Positions 5,374-16,523 of a stretch of 58,468 bases of DNA are shown here, one piece after another (position 1 is the stretch's first letter; each line of letters opens with the position of its first letter). The notes below the pieces were generated by a model, which saw nothing but the letters and a program-made list of their open reading frames with translations, was not told where the DNA came from and did no database searches. A program made the translations under genes and the position numbers. This DNA is from Senegalia massiliensis (GTDB lineage Bacteria > Bacillota > Clostridia > Tissierellales > SIT17). Where the stretch lies: NCBI RefSeq assembly GCF_009911265.1, contig NZ_QXXA01000017.1:1-58468 (forward strand). The letters are read 5' to 3'.

Positions 5374-5400
5374 CTAAGTATATTAAATAATCGAATAAAT

Positions 5401-5469
5401 GCTCATATAAGTTCCATAATAAGGTTGGAACGTTTCTACTAGGTGACCGATAATCATCTGTCTATGAGC
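5401..5469 (+). ncRNA. Guanine (purine-class) riboswitch aptamer, unit 1
   Basis: P1 is GCTCATA/TATGAGC. P2 is GTTCCA/TGGAAC and P3 is TAGGTGA/TCATCTG. The junction carries GTTTCTAC, L3 has CCGATAA and the L2 GG can kiss the L3 CC. The specificity base in the P3-P1 junction (GTCTATG) is C, which marks guanine rather than adenine. It is followed directly by a PRPP aptamer and a terminator. Confidence 0.93.
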
Positions 5470-5557
5470 GAGAGTGTGCCTAGGGTTCCGAAGAATTTTC
5501 TTGCTGGTCCAAGCGGCACAAATACTTATAGTATTACACCGAAGGGATAAAAGCCCA
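5470..5557 (+). ncRNA. PRPP riboswitch aptamer (ykkC subtype 2b), unit 1
   Basis: The ykkC-class conserved blocks CCTAGGGTTCCG, TGGTCCAAGCG and ACACCGAAGGGATAAAAGCCC-like end are present in order. ykkC RNAs bind guanidine, ppGpp or PRPP. Location before purine genes, directly after a guanine aptamer, points to the PRPP subtype. In described tandems PRPP favours expression and guanine opposes it. The final GCCC shares bases with the terminator stem. Confidence 0.88.
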
Positions 5558-5618: not shown

Positions 5619-6326
5619 ATGAAAATTATAGGAGGGATTATTATCAAGCTTATTTATAAAGGTAAAACTAAAGATGTACATGAATTAGATAGTGACAAAG
5701 TATTATTAAAATTCAAGGATGATGTTACAGGAAATGATGGAGTATTTGATCCAGGTGCTAATACTGTAGGACTTAGTATAGAAGGCATGGGTAATTTAGG
5801 ATTAAGACTTACAAAATTTTTCTTTGAGAAATTAAATGATATGGATATTCCTACTCATTATGTAGATTCAGATTTAGATAATCAAAATATGACAGTATTA
5901 AAAGCTAAACCATTTGGTAAAGGTGTAGAAGTAATTTGCAGATACAAAGCTGTAGGGAGCTTTATTAGAAGATATGGTATGTATATAGAAGAAGGACAAG
6001 AATTAGATGCTTATGTAGAGATCACTTTGAAAGATGATGAAAGAAATGATCCTTTAATAACTGATGAAGCATTAGAAATGTTAAATATAATGACTAAAAA
6101 AGAATATGAAATTTTAACAAGTCTTACTAGAAAAATTAGTAAAGTAATAAAAGATGAACTTTCTAAAAAAGATTTAGAATTATATGATATAAAATTAGAA
6201 TTTGGGAGAGTAGGTAATGATAATCACATAGCTCTTATAGATGAGATATCAGCAGGTAATATGAGAGTCTATGGAGATGGCAAATATATAGAACCATTTG
6301 AATTAGGTAAAATAATATTAAGTTAA
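5619..6326 (+). CDS. purC: Phosphoribosylaminoimidazole-succinocarboxamide synthase
   Basis: PurC joins aspartate to CAIR with ATP, forming SAICAR. The family signatures KLIYKGKTKDVH, KDDVTGNDG and the C-terminal DEISAGNMRVYGDGK are all present over about 227 residues. The start is odd. The only canonical start in frame is ATG 5619, but it has no ribosome site and would add nine residues (MKIIGGIII). A strong AGGAGGG lies inside that extension at 5630-5636, and six bases later comes ATC at 5643, exactly where homologues begin (M)KLIYKGKTKD. Initiation at ATT 5640 or ATC 5643 is therefore likely. First gene of the purine operon, behind riboswitch unit 1. Confidence 0.93.
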   Translation: MKIIGGIIIKLIYKGKTKDVHELDSDKVLLKFKDDVTGNDGVFDPGANTVGLSIEGMGNLGLRLTKFFFEKLNDMDIPTHYVDSDLDNQNMTVLKAKPFGKGVEVICRYKAVGSFIRRYGMYIEEGQELDAYVEITLKDDERNDPLITDEALEMLNIMTKKEYEILTSLTRKISKVIKDELSKKDLELYDIKLEFGRVGNDNHIALIDEISAGNMRVYGDGKYIEPFELGKIILS

Positions 6327-6333
6327 TAGAAAT

Positions 6334-6402
6334 GCTCATATAAGTCTCATAATATGGTTGGGACGTTTCTACTAAATGACCGATAATCATTTGTCTATGA
6401 GT
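6334..6402 (+). ncRNA. Guanine (purine-class) riboswitch aptamer, unit 2
   Basis: Close copy of unit 1, starting 8 bp after the purC stop. P3 is TAAATGA/TCATTTG, with paired changes relative to unit 1, so the helix is conserved by covariation. GTTTCTAC, the L2 ATATGG and L3 CCGATAA are present. The specificity base in GTCTATG is again C, indicating guanine. Confidence 0.92.
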
Positions 6403-6488
6403 GAGAGTGTGTCTAGGGTTCCGAAAGCTACTTTGCTGGTCCAAGCGACACAGATACTTCTGTATTACACCGAAGGGATAAAAGCCCA
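6403..6488 (+). ncRNA. PRPP riboswitch aptamer (ykkC subtype 2b), unit 2
   Basis: Contains TCTAGGGTTCCG, TGGTCCAAGCG and ACACCGAAGGGATAAAAGCC in the same order and spacing as unit 1, with variable loops differing. It lies between purC and purL, so it would set purL and all downstream genes separately from purC. Confidence 0.87.
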
Positions 6489-6547: not shown

Positions 6548-9500
6548 ATGAAATATAGTAGAGTATTTATTGAAAAAAAACAAGGGTTTAATTCAGAATC
6601 TAAAAATCTTTTAGAAGAGTTTAAAAATTATTTAGAGATTAAAAGGTTAGAAGAAGTTAGGGTTATAAATGTTTATGATTTAGTAAATGCAAATGAGAAA
6701 GAGGAAAAAGAAATTATAGAAAAGTTTCTATATGAACCTGAAATAGATAATTTATATAAAGAATTAAATATTAGTGAAGATGAAAAAGCATTTAGAATAG
6801 AAGATTTAAAAGGGCAATACAACAAAAGAGAGTTTTTTTCAAATAAGCTTATAAATACTCTTTTTCCAGATAAAGATATAAAAATTTTGCAATCAAAAGT
6901 AATAATATTAAAAGGTATAAATGATGAAGAATTTAAGATTATTAAAGATTATCATATAAATCCAATAGAAGTAGCAGAGATTTTTTTAGATAAAGTTACT
7001 TTTATGGAGGAAAAAGAAAAAGCAAATGATATTGAAATAATAGATGGTTTTATAGATTTTAGTGAAGAAAAAATGAAGAAATTTAAAGCTAATTATGGTA
7101 TAGGACTAGATTTAGAAGATTTATTATTTGCTAAAAAATATTTTAAAGATGAAAATAGAAATCCATCTATTACAGAAATAAAACTAATAGATACTTATTG
7201 GTCTGATCATTGTAGACATACTACATTCATGACAGAAATTAAAGATATAAAATTCAATGAAGGAAAATATAAGGAAGTTTTTGAAGAAGCTTTAAAGAAA
7301 TATTTATCTTCGAGAAATTACACTTATGAAGATGAAGATAAAGCTATATCTTTAATGGATTTAGCTACTATAAATATGAAAGAATTAAAGAAAGAAGGAC
7401 TTTTAGAAGATAAAGAACAAACAGATGAAGTAAATGCAGCAAGTATAGAAATAGATGTAGATATTGATGGTAAAGCTGAAAAATGGTTACTAATGTTTAA
7501 AAATGAAACTCATAATCATCCTACAGAAATGGAACCATTTGGAGGTGCTGCTACTTGTCTTGGAGGAGGCATTAGAGATCCACTATCTGGTAGAAGTTAT
7601 GTATATCAAGCAATGAGAATTACAGGTTCAGCTGATCCTAGAAAAAAATATGATGAAACTTTAAAAGGAAAATTACCTCAAAGAAAAATAACTAAAACTG
7701 CTATGAAAGGATATAGCTCATATGGAAATGAAATAGGTGCAAGTACTGGATATGTAAGAGAAATTTATGATGAAGGATTTTTAGCAAAGAGAATGGAATG
7801 TGGTGCATTAGTTGCAGCTGCTCCTAAAGAATGGGTTTATAGAGGTAATCCAAGTGAGGGAGATTTAGTACTTTTAGTAGGTGGGAGAACTGGAAGAGAT
7901 GGCCTTGGAGGAGCTGTAGGTTCATCTAAAGAACATACAGAAAAATCACTTCATACAAGTGGAGCGGAAGTGCAAAAAGGTGATCCTTCATTAGAAAGAA
8001 AGATAATAAGATTATTTAGAAAAGAAAATGTATCTAAGATGATAAAAAAATGTAATGATTTTGGAGCAGGAGGAGTAGGAGTTGCAATAGGAGAATTAGC
8101 CGATGGATTAACTATAGAATTAGATAATGTAAAATTAAAATATCCTGGTCTTGATGGAACTGAAATAGCTCTTTCTGAATCTCAAGAAAGAATGGCTGTT
8201 TTAATAGATAAAAATGATTTAGATAAATTTTTAAAAGAAACAAATAAAGAGGATTTAGAAGCTACTGTAATAGCTAAAGTTACAGAAGAAAGAATATTAA
8301 AAATGTTCTGGAAAGATAAAGAAATAGTAAATATTAAAAGGGATTTTTTAGACACAAATGGCATAAGAAAAAATACTAAAGTAGAAGTAGAAAATCCTTC
8401 TAATAATAGTTATTTAGAAGAAATTCCAAGTAAATTAAATAATAAATCCAAAATGGATAGTTTGAAAATGACTCTTAAAGATATCAATAACTCTAGTCAA
8501 AAAGGACTTTTAGAAAACTTTGATACTACAGTAGGAGGTACTACTGTACTGATGCCTTATGGAGGAAAATATATGTTAAGTCCTATAGAAGGAATGGTAT
8601 CAAAAATACCTGTTCTAGAAGGTGAAACTTCTACTTGTTCCATAATGACTTATGGATATGAACCAAAATTAGCTAAATGGAGTCCATTTCATGGAGGATA
8701 TTATTCAGTAATAGAATCTATTGCAAAAGTGGTAGCTTTAGGAGGAGATTATAGGAATATTAAACTAACATTCCAAGAATACTTTGAAAGATTAGGAGAA
8801 AATTCTATTAAATGGGGTAAGCCTTTTTCAGCTTTACTTGGAGCATATTTAGTTCAAAAGGAACTTGATATAGCAAGTATAGGTGGAAAAGATAGTATGA
8901 GTGGTACATTTGAAGACATTGATGTTCCACCTACACTTATAAGTTTTGGAGTAACAACTGAAAAGTTAGAAAATATCGTATCAAATGAATTTAAATATGA
9001 AAATAGCAATGTATTATTAATTCCTTTAGAAATAGATGATAAAGGTCTAATAGACTTTAAACAATTAAAAAATAATTATAGAAAAGTTAAAGAACTAATC
9101 CATAACAAAAAAATAAAAGCTATCCAAAGTATAAAAGAAGGTGGAATAGCTAGAACTATTTGTGAAATGGCCTTTGGAAATAAAATGGGATTTAAATTTA
9201 ATGATATAGAAAAGGCAAAGTTATTCAGACCTTTATTTGGATCCTTAGTAATTGAAATATCCAAAGATGAAGATATAGAAAAATTATTTCAAGATGTAGA
9301 CTATGAAATATTAGGTAAAACTATAAATGAAAGTAAAATTTATATAGATAATGATGATGAATCTATAGATGAACTTATAAATATATGGGAAAGTCCTTTA
9401 AAAGATATATTTCCTATAAAAAATAAAAATTTAAAAGAAAAAATAGAGATGAAAAATGATAAAAAAATCATATTTAAATCTAATAAATCCATAAAACCTA

Positions 9501-10222
9501 AAATATTGATACCTATATTTACAGGAACTCATGGGGAATATACTTTAGCTAATTCTTTTAAGGAAGCTGGGGGTGAAGTAGATACTTTTGTATTTAAGTT
9601 TTCTAATAAAATTAGTGTAGAAGATTCTTTTAAAGAATTCAGAAGAAGAATAGAGAAAAGTCAAATTATTGCCTTTCCTCATGGAGCTGTATTTGGTGGT
9701 GAACCTGAAACTGGTGGAAAACTTATTAAATATATTTTAAATGAAGATTATATAAAAGAAGAAATACAAAACCATTTAAATTTAAGAGATGGACTTATTC
9801 TTGGAATAGGTGATGGTTTTCAGGGACTTATTAAATCAGGTTTAATAGCTGATTCAGTAACTTTAGCAGAAAATGAAAGTGGGGAATTTATATCTACTAC
9901 TTGCGATATAGTGGTAGAAAATGATTCATCTCCTTGGTTTAATTCTATGAATATAGGAGATATTTACACAGCACCAGTAGCTACAAAAGAAGGAAGATTA
10001 ATTTTAACAGATGGAAATAATTTAAGTGAACAAATACCAACAACATTTTCAAATGAAAATCCTACTGGATCTTTAGGAAATATAGAATCCTTAACAAGTA
10101 AAGATGGAAGAATACTTGGAACAATTTCTTCTATTGATAGAATTCATAAGGATTTATATAAAAATATAGAAATAAAAGGAACACATAATATATTTAAATC
10201 AGGCGTTAAATATTTTGATTAG
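6548..10222 (+). CDS. purL: FGAM synthase (large PurL) with apparently inactive glutaminase domain
   Basis: A 1224-residue one-chain FGAM synthase, which converts FGAR plus ATP and an amide nitrogen into FGAM. The synthetase half looks intact: TYWSDHCRHTTF near residue 217 and NETHNHPTEMEPFGGAATCL near 318. The C-terminal class I glutaminase domain (about 975-1224) is present but its active site is altered. The nucleophile elbow usually read GxCNG is GIGDG, so Cys is Gly1088. The usual HSE near the end is SID, so His is Ser1195 and Glu is Asp1197. The usual PGG oxyanion segment is PHG. The enzyme probably uses ammonia. The gene follows riboswitch unit 2 and AAAGGAGG; purE starts 12 bp after its stop. 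Confidence 0.95.
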   Translation: MKYSRVFIEKKQGFNSESKNLLEEFKNYLEIKRLEEVRVINVYDLVNANEKEEKEIIEKFLYEPEIDNLYKELNISEDEKAFRIEDLKGQYNKREFFSNKLINTLFPDKDIKILQSKVIILKGINDEEFKIIKDYHINPIEVAEIFLDKVTFMEEKEKANDIEIIDGFIDFSEEKMKKFKANYGIGLDLEDLLFAKKYFKDENRNPSITEIKLIDTYWSDHCRHTTFMTEIKDIKFNEGKYKEVFEEALKKYLSSRNYTYEDEDKAISLMDLATINMKELKKEGLLEDKEQTDEVNAASIEIDVDIDGKAEKWLLMFKNETHNHPTEMEPFGGAATCLGGGIRDPLSGRSYVYQAMRITGSADPRKKYDETLKGKLPQRKITKTAMKGYSSYGNEIGASTGYVREIYDEGFLAKRMECGALVAAAPKEWVYRGNPSEGDLVLLVGGRTGRDGLGGAVGSSKEHTEKSLHTSGAEVQKGDPSLERKIIRLFRKENVSKMIKKCNDFGAGGVGVAIGELADGLTIELDNVKLKYPGLDGTEIALSESQERMAVLIDKNDLDKFLKETNKEDLEATVIAKVTEERILKMFWKDKEIVNIKRDFLDTNGIRKNTKVEVENPSNNSYLEEIPSKLNNKSKMDSLKMTLKDINNSSQKGLLENFDTTVGGTTVLMPYGGKYMLSPIEGMVSKIPVLEGETSTCSIMTYGYEPKLAKWSPFHGGYYSVIESIAKVVALGGDYRNIKLTFQEYFERLGENSIKWGKPFSALLGAYLVQKELDIASIGGKDSMSGTFEDIDVPPTLISFGVTTEKLENIVSNEFKYENSNVLLIPLEIDDKGLIDFKQLKNNYRKVKELIHNKKIKAIQSIKEGGIARTICEMAFGNKMGFKFNDIEKAKLFRPLFGSLVIEISKDEDIEKLFQDVDYEILGKTINESKIYIDNDDESIDELINIWESPLKDIFPIKNKNLKEKIEMKNDKKIIFKSNKSIKPKILIPIFTGTHGEYTLANSFKEAGGEVDTFVFKFSNKISVEDSFKEFRRRIEKSQIIAFPHGAVFGGEPETGGKLIKYILNEDYIKEEIQNHLNLRDGLILGIGDGFQGLIKSGLIADSVTLAENESGEFISTTCDIVVENDSSPWFNSMNIGDIYTAPVATKEGRLILTDGNNLSEQIPTTFSNENPTGSLGNIESLTSKDGRILGTISSIDRIHKDLYKNIEIKGTHNIFKSGVKYFD

Positions 10223-10234
10223 GAGGTAATGTAA

Positions 10235-10714
10235 ATGAAAGTAAGCGTAATAATGGGAAGTATTTCAGATAAAGAGATAGCTAAAAAGACAATAGAAATT
10301 TTAGAGAAATTTAATATTGAATATGAGGTAAAGGTAATTTCAGCCCATAGAACACCAGATAAGGCAGTGGAATTTGTTAAAGATGCTGAAGAAAATAATA
10401 CAGAAGTAATTATAGCTATAGCAGGTAAAGCAGCTCATTTAGCAGGAGTTTTAGCAGGACTTAGCACATTACCTGTAATTGGTATTCCTGCAAAATCATC
10501 TACTATGGATGGATTAGATTCTTTACTTTCAACAGTTCAAATGCCAAAAGGAGTACCTGTAGCAACTGTTGCAATTAATGGTGGAGAAAATGCAGGGTTA
10601 CTTGCAGTACAAATGCTATCACTTAAATATCCAAAACTAAAAGAAGCATTAAAAGAATATAAAGTGGAATTAAAAAAACAAGTTGAAGAAATGAATGGAT
10701 CTCTAAACTTTTAA
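10235..10714 (+). CDS. purE: 5-(carboxyamino)imidazole ribonucleotide mutase / AIR carboxylase PurE
   Basis: A 159-residue PurE giving CAIR. MGSISDKE, SAHRTPDKA and the DSLLSTVQMPKGVPVATVAI stretch are class I-like. The usual class I AGGAAHLPGM reads AGKAAHLAGV (Lys65, Ala70); class II enzymes, which fix CO2 directly onto AIR, have a basic residue (AGRSN) at this place. No purK is in the operon, so the direct CO2 reaction is possible. AGGAGGTAATGTAA precedes the ATG. Class assignment is uncertain; the PurE identity is not. Confidence 0.94.
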   Translation: MKVSVIMGSISDKEIAKKTIEILEKFNIEYEVKVISAHRTPDKAVEFVKDAEENNTEVIIAIAGKAAHLAGVLAGLSTLPVIGIPAKSSTMDGLDSLLSTVQMPKGVPVATVAINGGENAGLLAVQMLSLKYPKLKEALKEYKVELKKQVEEMNGSLNF

Positions 10715-10726
10715 GGGGGGATTATT

Positions 10727-12073
10727 TTGAGTGGTGTTTTAGGTATTTATGGAAAAGATATAGAAGAAATATCAGGGATGATGTACTATGGCCTCTATGC
10801 TCTTCAGCATAGAGGGCAAGTTAGTACTGGAATTGCAATAAATAATAATGGATTCATAGATTATCACAAAGATATGGGACTTGTAAATGAAGTATTTGAA
10901 AAAGAAATTTTAAATAGATTTAGAGGAAATATCTGTATTGGACATGTAAGATATGCTTTTTCAGATGAAGAAAAGAATAGAAAAAATACAGAACCTTTAG
11001 TAGTAGGATATAGAAAAGGCGCTTTAGCATTAGCACATGATGGTAAAATAGCAAATTATCTAGAGTTAAAAGACAAATTAGAAGATGATGGAACTATATT
11101 TCAAACAGATTTAGATGCAGAATTAATAGCCAATTTAATAGCAAGACATCATAAAGATGACTTAGAAGATGCTATAAAAAATGCCTTGGAGAAATTAAAA
11201 GGTTCTTTTTCAATAGCTATAATGACAAATGATAAATTAATAGGAGCAAGAGATTCTTTTGGTATCAAACCATTATCTATTGGAAAATTAAGGGATAACT
11301 ATATATTATCTTCAGAAACATGTGCCTTTGATACCATAGGAGCAGAATTTATTAGGCATGTAGAGCCAGGTGAAATAGTAGTAATTGATGATGAAGGTAT
11401 TAAAAGCATATATAAGAAATCTAAAAAAAGAGCTTTATGTTTATTTGAAAGTATATATTTTGCTAGACCTGATAGTGAAATAGATGGAAAAAGCATTTAT
11501 CTATCTAGAATTAAAGCAGGAAAAACTCTTTTTAAAGAATCAAAAATAGATGCAGATATAGTAATAGGTGCACCAGATTCTGGAATTATCGCTGCAATAG
11601 GATATGCAGAAGAGTCAAAAATTCCATATGCAGAAGGATTAATCAAAAATAGATATGTAGGAAGAACATTTATTAGTCCTACAAAAGAATTAAGAGAACA
11701 AGGTGTAAAGATTAAATTAAATCCTTTAAAAGAAAATATAGTAGGTAAAAAAGTAATATTAGTAGATGATTCTATTGTGAGAGGAACCACAATAAAACAA
11801 ACTGTAAAAATGTTAAAAGATTCAGGAGCAAAAGAAGTTCATGTAAGAATTGCATCTCCTAGAGTAACTCATTCCTGTCATTTAGGAATGGATACTCCAA
11901 ATAAAGATAATTTAATAGGTGCAAATAAAACTCCTGAAGAAATAACAGAAATAATAGGTGCAGATTCACTATATTTCTTATCATTAGAAGGATTATTACA
12001 ATCTGTAGGTGAAAATAATGGTTTTTGTAAAGGGTGCTTTACAGGTAATTACCCAATAGAAAGGATGGATTAA
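10727..12073 (+). CDS. purF: Amidophosphoribosyltransferase PurF with altered glutaminase site
   Basis: A 448-residue PurF, making phosphoribosylamine from PRPP. The phosphoribosyltransferase half is intact, with VILVDDSIVRGTT (residues 343-355). The four Cys that bind [4Fe-4S] in Bacillus PurF are kept: C238, C384, C434 and C437. The N-terminal Ntn glutaminase is altered: the expected Cys-Gly-Val-Phe-Gly start is (M)SGVLGI, so the nucleophile is Ser; the HNGN oxyanion motif is HDGK (104-107). Arg29, Arg75 and Asp130 remain. There is no propeptide. The start is TTG behind AAGGGGGG, and no Cys codon lies upstream in frame. Ammonia use is inferred. Confidence 0.95.
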   Translation: MSGVLGIYGKDIEEISGMMYYGLYALQHRGQVSTGIAINNNGFIDYHKDMGLVNEVFEKEILNRFRGNICIGHVRYAFSDEEKNRKNTEPLVVGYRKGALALAHDGKIANYLELKDKLEDDGTIFQTDLDAELIANLIARHHKDDLEDAIKNALEKLKGSFSIAIMTNDKLIGARDSFGIKPLSIGKLRDNYILSSETCAFDTIGAEFIRHVEPGEIVVIDDEGIKSIYKKSKKRALCLFESIYFARPDSEIDGKSIYLSRIKAGKTLFKESKIDADIVIGAPDSGIIAAIGYAEESKIPYAEGLIKNRYVGRTFISPTKELREQGVKIKLNPLKENIVGKKVILVDDSIVRGTTIKQTVKMLKDSGAKEVHVRIASPRVTHSCHLGMDTPNKDNLIGANKTPEEITEIIGADSLYFLSLEGLLQSVGENNGFCKGCFTGNYPIERMD

Positions 12074-12074
12074 T

Positions 12075-13103
12075 ATGTCTTTAACATATAAAGATGCTGG
12101 AGTAGATAAACAAGCAGGATACAAACAAATTAGTTTAATAAAAAATATTATTAAGAATACTCATACAAAAGGAGTAGTATCTGACTTAGGAGGATTTTCT
12201 GGATTATTTGGATTAGACATGAAAAATTATAAAAATCCTGTACTAGCATCTGGCACAGATGGTGTAGGAACTAAACTTAAAATAGCCTTCATGATGGATA
12301 AACATGATACTATAGGTGAAGATTGTGTGGCTATGTGTGTAAATGACATATTATGTCAAGGTGCAAAACCATTGTTTTTCTTAGATTATATATCTACGGG
12401 GAAACTTATACCAGAAAAAATGTCAAGTATAGTAAAAGGTGTGTCACAAGGTTGTATCAAGGCAGGAGCAGCTCTAATAGGTGGAGAAACAGCTGAAATG
12501 CCAGGACTTTATGAAGAGGATGAATATGATTTAGCAGGTTTTTGCGTTGGTATAGTTGATAAGGAAAATATAATTAATGGAATAGATACAAAAGAAGGAG
12601 ATATTGTAATAGGACTTCCTTCTAATGGGCTACACAGTAATGGATATTCATTAGTTAGAAAGATAGTATTTGAAAAAGAAAATTTAAAAATTGATAGCTT
12701 TATAGATGAGTTGAAAACTACTATAGGAGAAGAATTACTAAAACCTACTCGTATATATAAAGAACCAGTATTAGAATTAATAGAGAAAATTAATATAAAA
12801 GGAATAGCTCATATTACAGGTGGAGGATTATATGAAAATGTTCCAAGAATTTTACCTAAAGGATTAACTGCTCATATGGATATTTCCAGAATAGATACTC
12901 CAGTTATATTTAATCTATTACAAAAATGGGGTGACATTAGTATTTGTGAAATGTATTCTACTTTTAATATGGGAATTGGAATGATAATTGTAATTTCAAA
13001 AGATGAATTAATAAAAGCTGAAGATCTATTAAATGAATTAAATGAAAAGTATTATATTTTAGGAGAAATCAAAAAAGGTGATGAAGGAGTAGTACTGTGC
13101 TAA
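12075..13103 (+). CDS. purM: Phosphoribosylformylglycinamidine cyclo-ligase (AIR synthase)
   Basis: A 342-residue PurM, closing the imidazole ring of FGAM with ATP. Conserved segments include LASGTDGVGTKLKIA, VNDILCQGAKPLFFLDY, LIGGETAEMPGLY and LPSNGLHSNGYSL. Length is typical. Its ATG follows the purF stop by one base and AAGGATGG is the ribosome site, so the two genes are translationally close. The 3' end overlaps purN by 7 bp. Confidence 0.97.
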   Translation: MSLTYKDAGVDKQAGYKQISLIKNIIKNTHTKGVVSDLGGFSGLFGLDMKNYKNPVLASGTDGVGTKLKIAFMMDKHDTIGEDCVAMCVNDILCQGAKPLFFLDYISTGKLIPEKMSSIVKGVSQGCIKAGAALIGGETAEMPGLYEEDEYDLAGFCVGIVDKENIINGIDTKEGDIVIGLPSNGLHSNGYSLVRKIVFEKENLKIDSFIDELKTTIGEELLKPTRIYKEPVLELIEKINIKGIAHITGGGLYENVPRILPKGLTAHMDISRIDTPVIFNLLQKWGDISICEMYSTFNMGIGMIIVISKDELIKAEDLLNELNEKYYILGEIKKGDEGVVLC

Positions 13104-13726
13104 AAATAGGAGTTTTAATTTCAGGAAGTGGCACAAATTTTCAAGCTATAGTTGAAACAATCGAAGATGAAAATATAAATGCAAAAGTAGAATTAGTAAT
13201 ATCAAATAAAAAAGATGCCTATGGACTTAAAAGAGCTGAATCAAGAGGAATAAGGGCTTTGTATTTAGATTCTAAGGATTTTAATAATATAGAAGACTAT
13301 GATTTAAAATTAATAGAAGAATTTAAAAAAAGAGATATAGAATTAATAGTTTTAGCAGGTTATTTAAAAGTTTTATCTAGTGATTTTATTGAAGCTTTTA
13401 AAAATAAAATAATAAATATACATCCTTCATTACTACCAAGCTTTGGAGGAAGAGGATGTTATGGAGAGAAAGTACACGAAAAAGTATTAAATTATGGATG
13501 TAAATATAGTGGAGCTACAGTACATTTTGTAGATAATGGAGTAGATACAGGTCCTATAATATTACAAAAAATAGTTGAAATAGATGAATATGAAACTATA
13601 AATAGCTTAAAACAAAAAGTACTTACTATAGAACATAAGATATTACCTATGGCAGTAAAACTATTTGCCGAAGAAAGAATTGTTTTAAATAGTAGGAAAG
13701 TAAAAATATTGGGGGAGATGAAATGA
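13097..13726 (+). CDS. purN: Phosphoribosylglycinamide formyltransferase
   Basis: A 209-residue PurN, moving a formyl group from 10-formyl-THF to GAR. It starts LKIGVLISGSGTNFQAI. The catalytic set is present: Asn and His in INIHPSLLP and Asp in DNGVDTGPI. It starts with GTG inside the end of purM, an overlap suggesting coupled translation, and overlaps purH by 4 bp (ATGA). Confidence 0.96.
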   Translation: MLKIGVLISGSGTNFQAIVETIEDENINAKVELVISNKKDAYGLKRAESRGIRALYLDSKDFNNIEDYDLKLIEEFKKRDIELIVLAGYLKVLSSDFIEAFKNKIINIHPSLLPSFGGRGCYGEKVHEKVLNYGCKYSGATVHFVDNGVDTGPIILQKIVEIDEYETINSLKQKVLTIEHKILPMAVKLFAEERIVLNSRKVKILGEMK

Positions 13727-15255
13727 AAAGCGCTTTAATAAGTGTATACGACAAGGAAGGAATAGTAGAATTTGCTTCTTCCTTAAAAAAATTAGGTTGG
13801 AAAATAATATCAACTGGTGGCACAAAAAAATTATTAAGTAAGTCAGGTATAGATGTGTTAGAAGTAGAAGATATAACTAAATTTCCAGAAATATTAGATG
13901 GGAGGGTAAAGACCTTAAATCCATATATACATGGAGGATTACTTTTTAAAAGAGAAAACAAAGAACATATAGAAACTATTGAAGAAATGGGAATACAATC
14001 AATAGATATGGTAGTAAATAATCTATACCCATTTGAAGAAACTATAAAAAATGCAGATTCAGGTCATGAAGATATTATAGAAAATATAGATATAGGTGGT
14101 CCATCTATGATTAGAGCTGCTGCAAAGAATTATAAAGATGTTACTGTTATAGTGGATCCAAAAGACTATAGTTTAGTTTTAGAAGAACTTAATAATAATG
14201 ATGATACAAACCTTTCAACTAGAAGATATTTAGCTAGGAAAGTATTTAATTATACTTCATATTATGATACTTTAATTTCTAATTATTTTAATGAATTAGA
14301 AAAGGTAAAGTTTCCAGAGAATATTACTCTTTGCTATAAATCTAGAAAAAGTTTAAGATATGGAGAAAATCCTCATCAAAATGCAGCGTTTTATGAAGAA
14401 ATAAAAGAAACTAATGGAACATTATCTAAAAGTAAACAAATTCATGGGAAAGAGTTATCTTTTAATAATATAAATGATTCAAATGGAGCATTAAAGATAT
14501 TAAAAGAATTTGATGAACCTACTATAGTAGGAGTAAAACACGCTAATCCAAGTGGAATAGGTAGTGGTGAAAAAATAGAAGATGCATATGTAAAAGCTTA
14601 CGAATGCGATACAAAATCAATATTTGGAGGTATTATAGCTTCTAATAGAGAAATAAATAAAGAAATTGCAGAGAAAATAAATCAAATTTTTATAGAAGTG
14701 GTACTTGCTCCTTCATTTAGTAATGAAGCTTTAGATATACTTACTAAAAAGAAAAATATAAGGCTTATAGAGATAAAGGATATAATGAAAAAAGATTATA
14801 ATGAATTTGATATAAAGAAAGTTTTAGGTGGAATACTTATTCAAGAAAAGGATAATAAACTTTTATTAGATGATATACAAATTGTAAGTAAAAGAAAGCC
14901 AAATGAAGAAGAATTAGAAGATTTATTATTTGCCTTTAAATCTGCAAAACATATTAATTCTAATGGAGTTGTAATAGCAAAAAATAAAGCAACTATAGGT
15001 ATAGGATTAGGAGAAGTAAATAGAGTTTGGGCTGTAGAAAATGCAATAGATAGATCACAAAATAAGGTTTCTGAAAGTGTTATAGCTTCAGATGGATTTT
15101 TCCCATTCAGAGATTCTATAGAACTACTTGCAAAAGCTGGTGTAAAAGCTATTATTCAACCAGGAGGCTCTATAAGAGATGAGGAAGTTATAGAAGAAGT
15201 AGATAAAAATAATATGGTAATGGTATTTACAGGTATTAGACATTTCAAACATTAA
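13723..15255 (+). CDS. purH: Bifunctional AICAR transformylase / IMP cyclohydrolase
   Basis: A 510-residue PurH carrying the last two steps to IMP. The cyclohydrolase part shows LISVYDKEGI, STGGT and GRVKTLNPYIHGGLL. The transformylase part has the catalytic Lys-His in VGVKHANPSGIGSG (many homologues have Cys instead of Ser after Pro) and SDGFFPFRDSIE near the end. GGGGGAG precedes the ATG, which overlaps the purN stop. Confidence 0.97.
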   Translation: MKSALISVYDKEGIVEFASSLKKLGWKIISTGGTKKLLSKSGIDVLEVEDITKFPEILDGRVKTLNPYIHGGLLFKRENKEHIETIEEMGIQSIDMVVNNLYPFEETIKNADSGHEDIIENIDIGGPSMIRAAAKNYKDVTVIVDPKDYSLVLEELNNNDDTNLSTRRYLARKVFNYTSYYDTLISNYFNELEKVKFPENITLCYKSRKSLRYGENPHQNAAFYEEIKETNGTLSKSKQIHGKELSFNNINDSNGALKILKEFDEPTIVGVKHANPSGIGSGEKIEDAYVKAYECDTKSIFGGIIASNREINKEIAEKINQIFIEVVLAPSFSNEALDILTKKKNIRLIEIKDIMKKDYNEFDIKKVLGGILIQEKDNKLLLDDIQIVSKRKPNEEELEDLLFAFKSAKHINSNGVVIAKNKATIGIGLGEVNRVWAVENAIDRSQNKVSESVIASDGFFPFRDSIELLAKAGVKAIIQPGGSIRDEEVIEEVDKNNMVMVFTGIRHFKH

Positions 15256-15269
15256 TTAGGGGGGGTAAT

Positions 15270-16523
15270 ATGAATATATTAGTCATAGGCAGTGGAGGAC
15301 GTGAACATGCTTTATGCTGGAAGATTAATAAATCTAATAAAGTAAAAAAAATATATTGTGCTCCAGGTAATGGAGGAACTTTAGAAGTTGCTGAAAATGT
15401 AGATATAGCCTCAAATGATATAGATACATTACTTGAATTTGCATTAAATAACAAAATAGATTTAACAATTGTAGGACCAGAAGAGCCACTTGCATTAGGT
15501 ATAGTAGATAAATTCAAAGAAAATAATTTGAAAATATTTGGACCTAATAAAAAATCTAGTCAGTTAGAATCTAGTAAGGAGTTCTCTAAAAAATTTATGA
15601 GGAAATATAATATACCAACAGCTAAATATAAAGCTTTTTTAGAATATGATGAAGCAGTAAAAGGAATAAAAGAATTTACTTACCCTCTTGTAATAAAAGC
15701 AGATGGATTGTGTCTCGGAAAAGGAGTTGTAATTTGTGAGAATGAAACAGAGGCTTTAAATACTTTAAAAGATATATTGGAGAAAAAAATATATGGAAAA
15801 GAAGGAGAGAAAGTAATCATAGAAGAATTTTTAGAAGGAACAGAAGCATCTCTTCTTTGTTTTGTATCTGGAAATGATATAATTCCAATGGAAAGTGCAA
15901 GAGACTACAAGAAAATCTTTGATGGAGATAAGGGACTTAATACAGGAGGCATAGGGGCATATTCACCTAATGAATTATTTACAGATGAATTAAATAACAA
16001 GATAGGAAAAGAAGTATTAAAAAAGATTAGCAGAGGATTAAAAGAAGAAGAATTAGAGTATAATGGTATATTATTCATTGGATTTATGGTAGAAGAAGCT
16101 GATATTAAAGTATTGGAATTTAATGTGAGATTTGGGGATCCAGAAACAGAAGTATTAATGCCAAGACTTAAAAGTGATTTAATAGATATATTTGAAAAAA
16201 CAATAGATAATAAAATAGCAGAAAATGATTTGTTGTGGAGTAATAATTCTTGTGTTACAGTAGTTACTACTTCAAAGGGTTATCCTAAACAGTATAAAAA
16301 AGAACTTCCAATTACAGGAACACAAGATATAAATAAATCTTTAATACTTTTTCATAATGGTACAAAATATAACAATAGAGATTTAGTTACCAATGGTGGT
16401 AGAGTTTTAAGTATTACTTCTTTGGAATCTAATAGGGCTGAAGCTAGAGAAAAAATTTATGAAGAGATATCTAAGATTTATTATAATGGAATGTATTTTA
16501 GGAAAGATATAGCTTATAAATAA
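15270..16523 (+). CDS. purD: Phosphoribosylamine-glycine ligase (GAR synthetase)
   Basis: A 417-residue ATP-grasp enzyme joining phosphoribosylamine and glycine. It starts MNILVIGSGGREHALCWK and has VGPEEPLALGIVD, IKADGLCLGKGVVI and EFNVRFGDPETE. Last gene of the operon, behind AGGGGGGGTAAT. A strong terminator follows. purB, purK, purQ and purS are not in the window. Confidence 0.97.
   Translation: MNILVIGSGGREHALCWKINKSNKVKKIYCAPGNGGTLEVAENVDIASNDIDTLLEFALNNKIDLTIVGPEEPLALGIVDKFKENNLKIFGPNKKSSQLESSKEFSKKFMRKYNIPTAKYKAFLEYDEAVKGIKEFTYPLVIKADGLCLGKGVVICENETEALNTLKDILEKKIYGKEGEKVIIEEFLEGTEASLLCFVSGNDIIPMESARDYKKIFDGDKGLNTGGIGAYSPNELFTDELNNKIGKEVLKKISRGLKEEELEYNGILFIGFMVEEADIKVLEFNVRFGDPETEVLMPRLKSDLIDIFEKTIDNKIAENDLLWSNNSCVTVVTTSKGYPKQYKKELPITGTQDINKSLILFHNGTKYNNRDLVTNGGRVLSITSLESNRAEAREKIYEEISKIYYNGMYFRKDIAYK

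Follow-up and report, generated by a model that had tools for sequence, protein, structure and literature searches.

Introduction

Glutamine use by PurF and PurL is textbook biochemistry. As a rule, the synthetase site of an amidotransferase can also use NH3 directly, and without the nucleophile no glutamyl thioester is formed. Human carbamoyl-phosphate synthetase I (CPS1) has an inactive glutamine amidotransferase (GATase)-like domain with Ser294 in place of the Cys; according to the available part of the report (PMC4655335), it uses free ammonia, for which an alternative entry has been proposed. The accessible part of a second report (PMC3261824) describes a PurF' of Crenarchaeota that lacks the N-terminal Cys and was suggested to be possibly ammonia-dependent, as well as Escherichia coli PurF variants (Cys to Ser or Ala) that have no detectable glutamine activity and still use ammonia. 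Here, we analyzed a 58,468-nucleotide stretch of the Senegalia massiliensis genome (assembly GCF_009911265.1, contig NZ_QXXA01000017.1; the whole stretch is called the window below, and its features discussed here all lie on the + strand). Its purine (pur) operon encodes a large formylglycinamidine ribonucleotide (FGAM) synthase, PurL, whose GATase domain has lost all three catalytic residues, and a PurF altered at its own glutaminase site.

Results

The GATase domain of the window PurL is retained without its catalytic triad

The window purL gene (6548..10222) is an ATG-initiated open reading frame (ORF) of 1224 amino acids (aa). It has no internal stop, and its product matches the large-PurL model TIGR01857 over residues 5–1223 with 1456.9 bits, above the curated cut-off (1057.05); the open frame and intact synthetase part described in the initial annotation were thus borne out. 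A PF13507 (GATase_5) match covers residues 983–1223, and the class I GATase domain spans residues 978–1224 (9479..10219). In a profile alignment with Thermotoga PurQ and Salmonella PurL, the positions of the catalytic Cys, His and Glu are taken by Gly1088 (GGT, 9809..9811), Ser1195 (TCT, 10130..10132) and Asp1197 (GAT, 10136..10138), respectively. The three codons read the same on re-inspection, and the alignment with Salmonella PurL, which the initial annotation had proposed as a check, agrees with its claim that the domain is present with the entire triad gone. Other pocket motifs are altered as well. PGTNCEY reads TGTHGEY, with Gly996 (9533..9535) at a Cys that is conserved without being the nucleophile; SHGEGR reads ATKEGR, with Thr1146 (9983..9985) at the His site; and the PGG oxyanion turn reads PHG, as annotated, with His1045 (9680..9682) at a site that is Gly in 138/138 canonical rows of the control alignment below. 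Arg1198 (10139..10141) is unchanged and corresponds in the alignment to Salmonella Arg1263 (a number derived from the chain position), which, in the part of the structural report available (PMC3815217), lies atop the glutaminase site near the point of ammonia release.

The control alignment contained 188 PurL rows drawn from both named and other genomes. Cys was present in 138 rows (137 distinct domain sequences), every one of which also had His and Glu, and the Cys site of the remaining rows was Gly (46), Ser (3) or unreadable (1). Of the Gly rows, 4 were duplicates and 3 were unrelated sequences with His and Glu in place; without these, 39 rows of a single clade (see below) remained, referred to as the dead clade. 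Their nucleophile site is Gly throughout (39/39), their Glu site is Asp in all but one row (38 Asp, 1 Glu), and their His site is Ser (24), Asn (8), Ala (4) or another residue. Five replacements are essentially fixed in these rows, namely Gly1088 (39/39), Asp1197 (38/39), Gly996 (38/39; canonical rows Cys 124, Ser 14, n = 138), Thr1173 (38/39) and Thr1146 (37/39; His in 137/138 canonical rows), and Arg1198 is Arg in at least 38/39. Three positions have been freed: 1045 (Asn 16, Asp 16, His 7, n = 39), 1089 and 1195. The possibility that a Cys or a His-x-Glu motif is conserved at some other place in the domain was rejected, since no column of 40 dead-type domains holds more than 14 Cys or 28 His. 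A sequencing or frame error was also rejected, because a member of the same genus (G001, PurL 96% identical) has identical residues, as does the clade throughout.

The fold of the domain is predicted to be intact. AlphaFold2, run on a 72-sequence alignment, gave a predicted local distance difference test score (pLDDT) of 92.3 and a predicted template modeling score (pTM) of 0.91 for the window domain. With this model, Foldseek ranked the PurQ structure 3d54_D first (query template modeling score, TMq, 0.75), followed by entries for Salmonella PurL (1t3t, TMq 0.82). The domain therefore has the fold of a class I GATase and none of the Cys-His-Glu triad.

We compared the ratio of nonsynonymous to synonymous substitution rates (dN/dS, Nei–Gojobori) between the domain and the synthetase part. 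Over nine dead-clade pairs, some of which share a member and several of which have dS near or above 1, dN/dS was 0.04–0.21 for the domain and 0.08–0.15 for the synthetase part; the domain value was the higher one in 8/9 of these pairs, compared to 4/9 ordinary pairs. The range of 0.04–0.21 indicates that the dead-type domain is under purifying selection, with mild relaxation. Together with the open frame, the predicted fold and the purine riboswitches described below, this supports the initial description of a functional gene whose glutaminase is dead or has been repurposed. The slight relaxation, and a PurL broken by several stop codons in one genome of family f4 (G036, locus L210), could be taken as a hint that the operon is drifting toward loss while purines are taken from outside. 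However, the low domain dN/dS, the riboswitches and the retention of the full operon in the window and in a genome outside the order (G255) all argue against plain decay, to which we give hardly any credence. The dead-type genomes have no stop inside their PurL matches, some of which are cut by contig ends. The PurF matches of G025, G089 and G093 contain one stop each, probably at the gene end because open frames of 446–461 aa adjoin.

The newly fixed pocket and motif positions (Gly1088, Asp1197, Thr1173, Gly996 and Thr1146) would also be expected if the domain had been repurposed, such that the altered pocket regulates the synthetase or, in PurF, the transferase by binding glutamine, glutamate, ammonium or some other small molecule. 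Against this stand the free positions 1045, 1089 and 1195, and a mean column entropy that makes the dead-clade domain more variable relative to the synthetase core (1.29 vs 1.07) than the ordinary domain is (1.35 vs 1.45). We regard repurposing as possible but doubtful.

PurF of the same operon is altered at its nucleophile and oxyanion sites

The window purF gene (10727..12073) lies two genes downstream of purL, with purE between them. Its product, an amidophosphoribosyltransferase, scores 474.8 bits against TIGR01134 (cut-off 350) and 458.6 bits against Bacillus subtilis PurF (1ao0). It shares overall homology with class II, N-terminal nucleophile (Ntn) GATases of the PurF type, has an intact transferase part, and lacks their N-terminal Cys and oxyanion Asn. 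In the alignment to 1ao0, the Cys site is a Ser (AGT, 10730..10732) directly after the TTG start, and the site of the oxyanion-hole Asn of B. subtilis PurF is Asp105 (11039..11041). A misplaced start hiding a Cys was rejected: the four codons between the preceding stop and the TTG (Gly Gly Ile Ile) include none for Cys. With PurF and PurL both altered, both glutamine-dependent steps to inosine monophosphate have therefore changed within one operon.

Among 126 aligned PurF rows, the Asn site is Asn in 67, Asp in 56 and another residue in 3. The pairs of residues at the Cys and Asn sites are Cys-Asn (66), Ser-Asp (44), Cys-Asp (12), Cys-Ser (1), Gly-Ile (2) and Gly-Asn (1). Ser is thus never paired with Asn; all 44 Ser1 rows have Asp. 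The starred branches of the PurF tree force at least five changes of Ser, and of the Arg and Asp sites that contact glutamine in E. coli PurF, the former holds Arg in 41 and the latter Asp in 38 of the 44 Ser1 rows. The strict Ser-Asp pairing, the repeated changes of Ser and the retention of this Arg and Asp also count in favor of the repurposing considered above. Separately, distant PurF-like proteins that start with MGG and are ~27–35% identical to the window PurF were found in four purL-holding loci (L070, L073, L199 and L200).

The retained Arg and Asp raise the question of whether Ser1 PurF might still be a glutaminase, with Ser replacing Cys and PurL alone depending on ammonia. Other Ntn hydrolases use Ser as their nucleophile, and once Met is removed, Ser would be free at the N-terminus; the former also weighs against an ammonia-fed PurF. 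Conversely, the oxyanion Asn is Asp in each Ser1 row, and the corresponding Cys-to-Ser variant of the E. coli enzyme is the one without detectable glutamine activity in the accessible part of PMC3261824. An active Ser1 PurF is in our estimation improbable.

Full triad loss marks a single PurL clade, and the altered operon appears to have been transferred

The distribution was examined in 120 related genomes, in which PurL was readable in 107 and PurF in 112. Gly-type PurL is the sole readable copy in 37 genomes. Mixed sets occur in G080, with dead-type plus ordinary PurL (L120, L121), and in G092, with an ordinary PurL and both PurF types (L140–L142). In a tree of the PurL synthetase core (121 rows, glutaminase columns excluded), one clade has Gly in 42/42 rows (Shimodaira–Hasegawa-like approximate likelihood-ratio test, SH-aLRT, 100; these rows include the window twice and four named loci that are duplicates of genomes), and its sister group is formed by the five PurL of family f14. 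Named members are [Clostridium] ultunense DSM 10521, Clostridium sp. Cult2, a Tissierella and a Tepidimicrobium metagenome-assembled genome (MAG), and two less-well-named MAGs. On the tree, the Cys-site label has to change five times. Outside the clade, Cys is lacking in six rows, three with Gly (L119 of G057, L017, L071) and three with Ser (L149 of G034, L156 of G102, L053); His is kept in 6/6 and Glu in 5/6 of them. Since these outside rows keep His, full triad loss marks the clade.

We next searched 391 genomes of the class, drawn from a larger group, with the alignment of 40 dead domains. Dead-type PurL scored at least 377 bits and the rest at most 329. Outside the order, dead-type PurL was found only in G187 and G255, whose PurF proteins have Ser and Asp and whose genes follow the purC-L-E-F-M order of the window. 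Because motifs were read in the 30 best loci only, single losses like that of L017 would be missed by this search. The altered operon is present in the window genome and in G001. Two congeners of the window genome (G002 and G003) carry ordinary PurL and PurF that are ~50% identical to those of the window and are placed elsewhere in both trees, and the window operon was therefore probably acquired. In a comparison of 37 kb of G003 with 27 window ORFs, pur genes were the only ones in common. On these tree placements, replacement by horizontal transfer is the simplest reading. The initial claim, which concerned PurL, thus extends to PurF, to a clade-wide trait and to apparent horizontal transfer.

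In one genome of the set, PurD and PurL are fused: a single 1638-aa frame (L185, 389–5302, – strand) scores over the cut-offs of both TIGR00877 and TIGR01857 (one genome tested), and open frames of ~1640 aa are also present in other f4 genomes.

PurF is altered wherever the Gly-type PurL is found with a readable PurF

PurF was altered in each of the 37 genomes that combine a Gly-type PurL with a readable PurF (29 Ser/Asp, 8 Cys/Asp; G080 and G057 included), compared to 14/67 genomes with ordinary PurL only. In family f14, the sister of the dead clade, PurF is altered in 5/5 readable cases and PurL Cys is kept in 4/5, which suggests from the tree that PurF changed before PurL.

Altered enzymes tend to occur in genomes without a glutamine synthetase match

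Matches to the glutamine synthetase family PF00120 were found in 75/120 genomes and in 14/14 control genomes (the list of 75, the stricter list below and the list of 18 genomes of <90% completeness were compiled by hand). No PF00120 match was found in 38/53 altered-PurF genomes compared to 4/59 with ordinary PurF; exclusion of two distant PurF-like proteins (G066, G111) from the 53 leaves 37/51. The corresponding numbers for Gly-type PurL alone are 27/37 compared to 13/70 others. The contrasts persisted at ≥90% completeness, both for PurF (34/48 altered vs 2/47 ordinary) and for PurL (24/33 Gly-type vs 12/60 others). When a PF00120 score of roughly 300 bits or higher was required (G054, at 193 bits, was also taken in), 48/53 altered-PurF and 23/59 ordinary-PurF genomes lacked glutamine synthetase; this contrast is weaker, in part because type III enzymes score low. 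The window genome itself encodes a genuine glutamine synthetase (537 bits against TIGR00653). PF00120 proteins of 634–649 aa in some f5, f3 and f19 genomes were all counted as glutamine synthetase present. Two of them, of 634 and 649 aa (L287, 614–2515 and L288, 141–2087; f5 genomes G096 and G037), score 132 and 150 bits against TIGR00653 (cut-off 429).

In the part of the report consulted (PMC5924567), C. ultunense of high-ammonia digesters has no glutamine synthetase or ammonium transporter gene and assimilates ammonia via glutamate dehydrogenase. The PurL core of G056 is identical to that of C. ultunense, and we take G056 as that strain; the lack of a PF00120 match in G056 agrees with this account, as far as that part of it goes. 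The ammonium transporter AmtB was not found in the window genome. However, it was matched in only 15/120 relatives (12 over cut-off), so that its absence is not specific, and we dropped it as an ecological marker for being uninformative.

Other amidotransferases are changed in some relatives

Glutamine-dependent enzymes beyond PurF and PurL were examined in eight genomes besides that of the window. The GuaA nucleophile aligns as Gly for Cys in G009, G056 (C. ultunense) and G062; GuaA is ordinary in G000, G001 and G002, and the PF00117 search picked up no GuaA in G072 or G116. In G096, GuaA is 414 aa long (L268, 454–1695, – strand), with ~100 residues of the GATase domain missing. PyrG keeps its Cys in 7/8 genomes, and the CTP synthase of G072 (L259) has Ser at the nucleophile (GISLG). 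PF13522 matched PurF only in G009, G056, G062 and G072, with no GlmS-like class II GATase, unlike in G000, G001 and G002; amino-sugar synthesis may also have changed in these four genomes. In the window genome, the GuaA, PyrG, CobQ and GlmS proteins among the PF00117 and PF13522 matches all keep Cys.

Could another protein hydrolyze glutamine and hand ammonia to PurL and PurF? Unassigned GATase-like proteins of 244–354 aa in open frames exist in G009, G072 and G096, which would be compatible with such a glutaminase in trans. In the window genome, however, PF00117 matched GuaA, PyrG and CobQ only and PF13507 matched PurL only (other glutaminase families were not searched for), and the operon holds no extra gene. 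A glutaminase in trans is very improbable, and a separate PurQ supplying the window PurL was rejected because PF13507, which would recognize a second GATase_5 protein, matches only PurL itself.

The operon carries two purine riboswitch aptamers

A purine riboswitch aptamer (5383..5484; Rfam RF00167, 77.4 bits, gathering threshold 37) precedes purC (5619..6326; PF01259, 1.1e-39), which encodes phosphoribosylaminoimidazole-succinocarboxamide (SAICAR) synthetase. A second aptamer (6316..6417; RF00167, 76.6 bits) lies between purC and purL in the same operon. Downstream of purL are purE (10235..10714), named by position and homology to pur operons, purF, and the remaining purM, purN, purH and purD (12075..16523; TIGR00878, NF002049 and TIGR00877, with purN assigned by position and homology only).

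Discussion

We propose that the window pur operon is quite probably an ammonia-fed purine pathway, in which the old glutaminase domains would remain as structural or ammonia-port parts. PurF and PurL without Cys would form no glutamyl thioester, and both would take NH3 from solution. It might pass through the remaining glutaminase domain or alongside it, a route like the one suggested for carbamoyl-phosphate synthetase I. The domains might be retained because they are part of the enzyme interfaces and of the ammonia path, where Arg1198 at the exit is unchanged, and the changed pockets, with Ser and Asp in PurF and with Gly1088, Thr1146, Thr1173 and Asp1197 in PurL, may have become a port or sensor. 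Most likely, lineages living with abundant ammonia first tolerated and later fixed the change, and many of them no longer have a recognizable glutamine synthetase; the window genome, having one, seems to be a recipient of the operon. In a bolder form, which we put forward tentatively, lineages that gave up glutamine synthesis would have converted all glutamine-dependent steps to GMP (PurF, PurL and GuaA) to the direct use of ammonia, with the PurF and PurL pockets becoming ammonium ports with conserved residues of their own, and the purC-L-E-F-M block would then have spread as a transferable glutamine-free module to glutamine makers such as the window genome.

Ammonia as the nitrogen donor in vivo is something we infer from sequence comparison, backed by the parallel change of PurF, the lack of a second GATase_5 protein in the window genome and, among relatives, the tendency of the trait to go with a missing glutamine synthetase. 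Several observations weigh against an ammonia-fed pathway. The 14 altered-PurF genomes noted above retain ordinary PurL, and 4 of them have a PF00120 match; in G034 and G102, the PurL Cys is replaced by Ser, yet PurF is ordinary. These cases indicate that the PurL and PurF changes are not obligatorily linked, and Cys1 of PurF is retained in eight Gly-type-PurL genomes. Of the 37 Gly-type-PurL genomes, 10, the window's included, have some PF00120 protein. Only four independent pairs on the tree differ in PurF state, and in these, on average, glutamine synthetase goes in the same direction as PurF in 1.9 and in the opposite direction in 0.4; the link of PurF with glutamine synthetase therefore cannot be significant once kinship is respected. 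The PurL pairs give no direction at all with glutamine synthetase. The lack of specificity of the missing AmtB belongs with these points.

Annotation models name proteins of this kind glutamine-dependent from their overall score. The Cys-less GuaA of C. ultunense, for example, passes the glutamine-hydrolyzing GMP synthase model NF000848 (696.5, cut-off 400) and fails the N-terminal domain model TIGR00888 (139.3, cut-off 172.15). If these bacteria make purines from ammonia, nitrogen models of high-ammonia digesters would need revision, glutamine analogues should not inhibit their PurF and PurL enzymes, and the clade would offer natural enzymes for studying ammonia access to the synthetase with the glutaminase switched off. 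The graded genomes, with PurF alone altered, with PurF and PurL, or with GuaA too, make the order of events testable.

In the open-access literature (subscription papers and preprints were mostly outside the search), the titles and abstract starts of the matches listed included no paper on a glutaminase-dead PurL or on the purine enzymes of this lineage, and none named a precedent for a coordinated PurF and PurL change; single-enzyme precedents are known. Compared to the large PurL proteins of TIGR01857, the window PurL shares homology over the whole length and lacks the catalytic triad. The closest way of working is that of carbamoyl-phosphate synthetase I, which, in the part of PMC4655335 available, likewise keeps a GATase-like domain with the nucleophile Cys replaced. 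CPS1, however, is one enzyme of the animal urea cycle, whereas the joint change described here involves two or three enzymes of a single bacterial pathway, and the PurL of this clade lacks Cys, His and Glu alike. The window PurF resembles the PurF' of Crenarchaeota in lacking the N-terminal Cys. There, as far as the accessible part of PMC3261824 describes, a Cys-bearing PurF stands beside PurF', whereas in the window genome the altered PurF is the sole copy (PF13522 and PurF searches) and PurL has changed with it.

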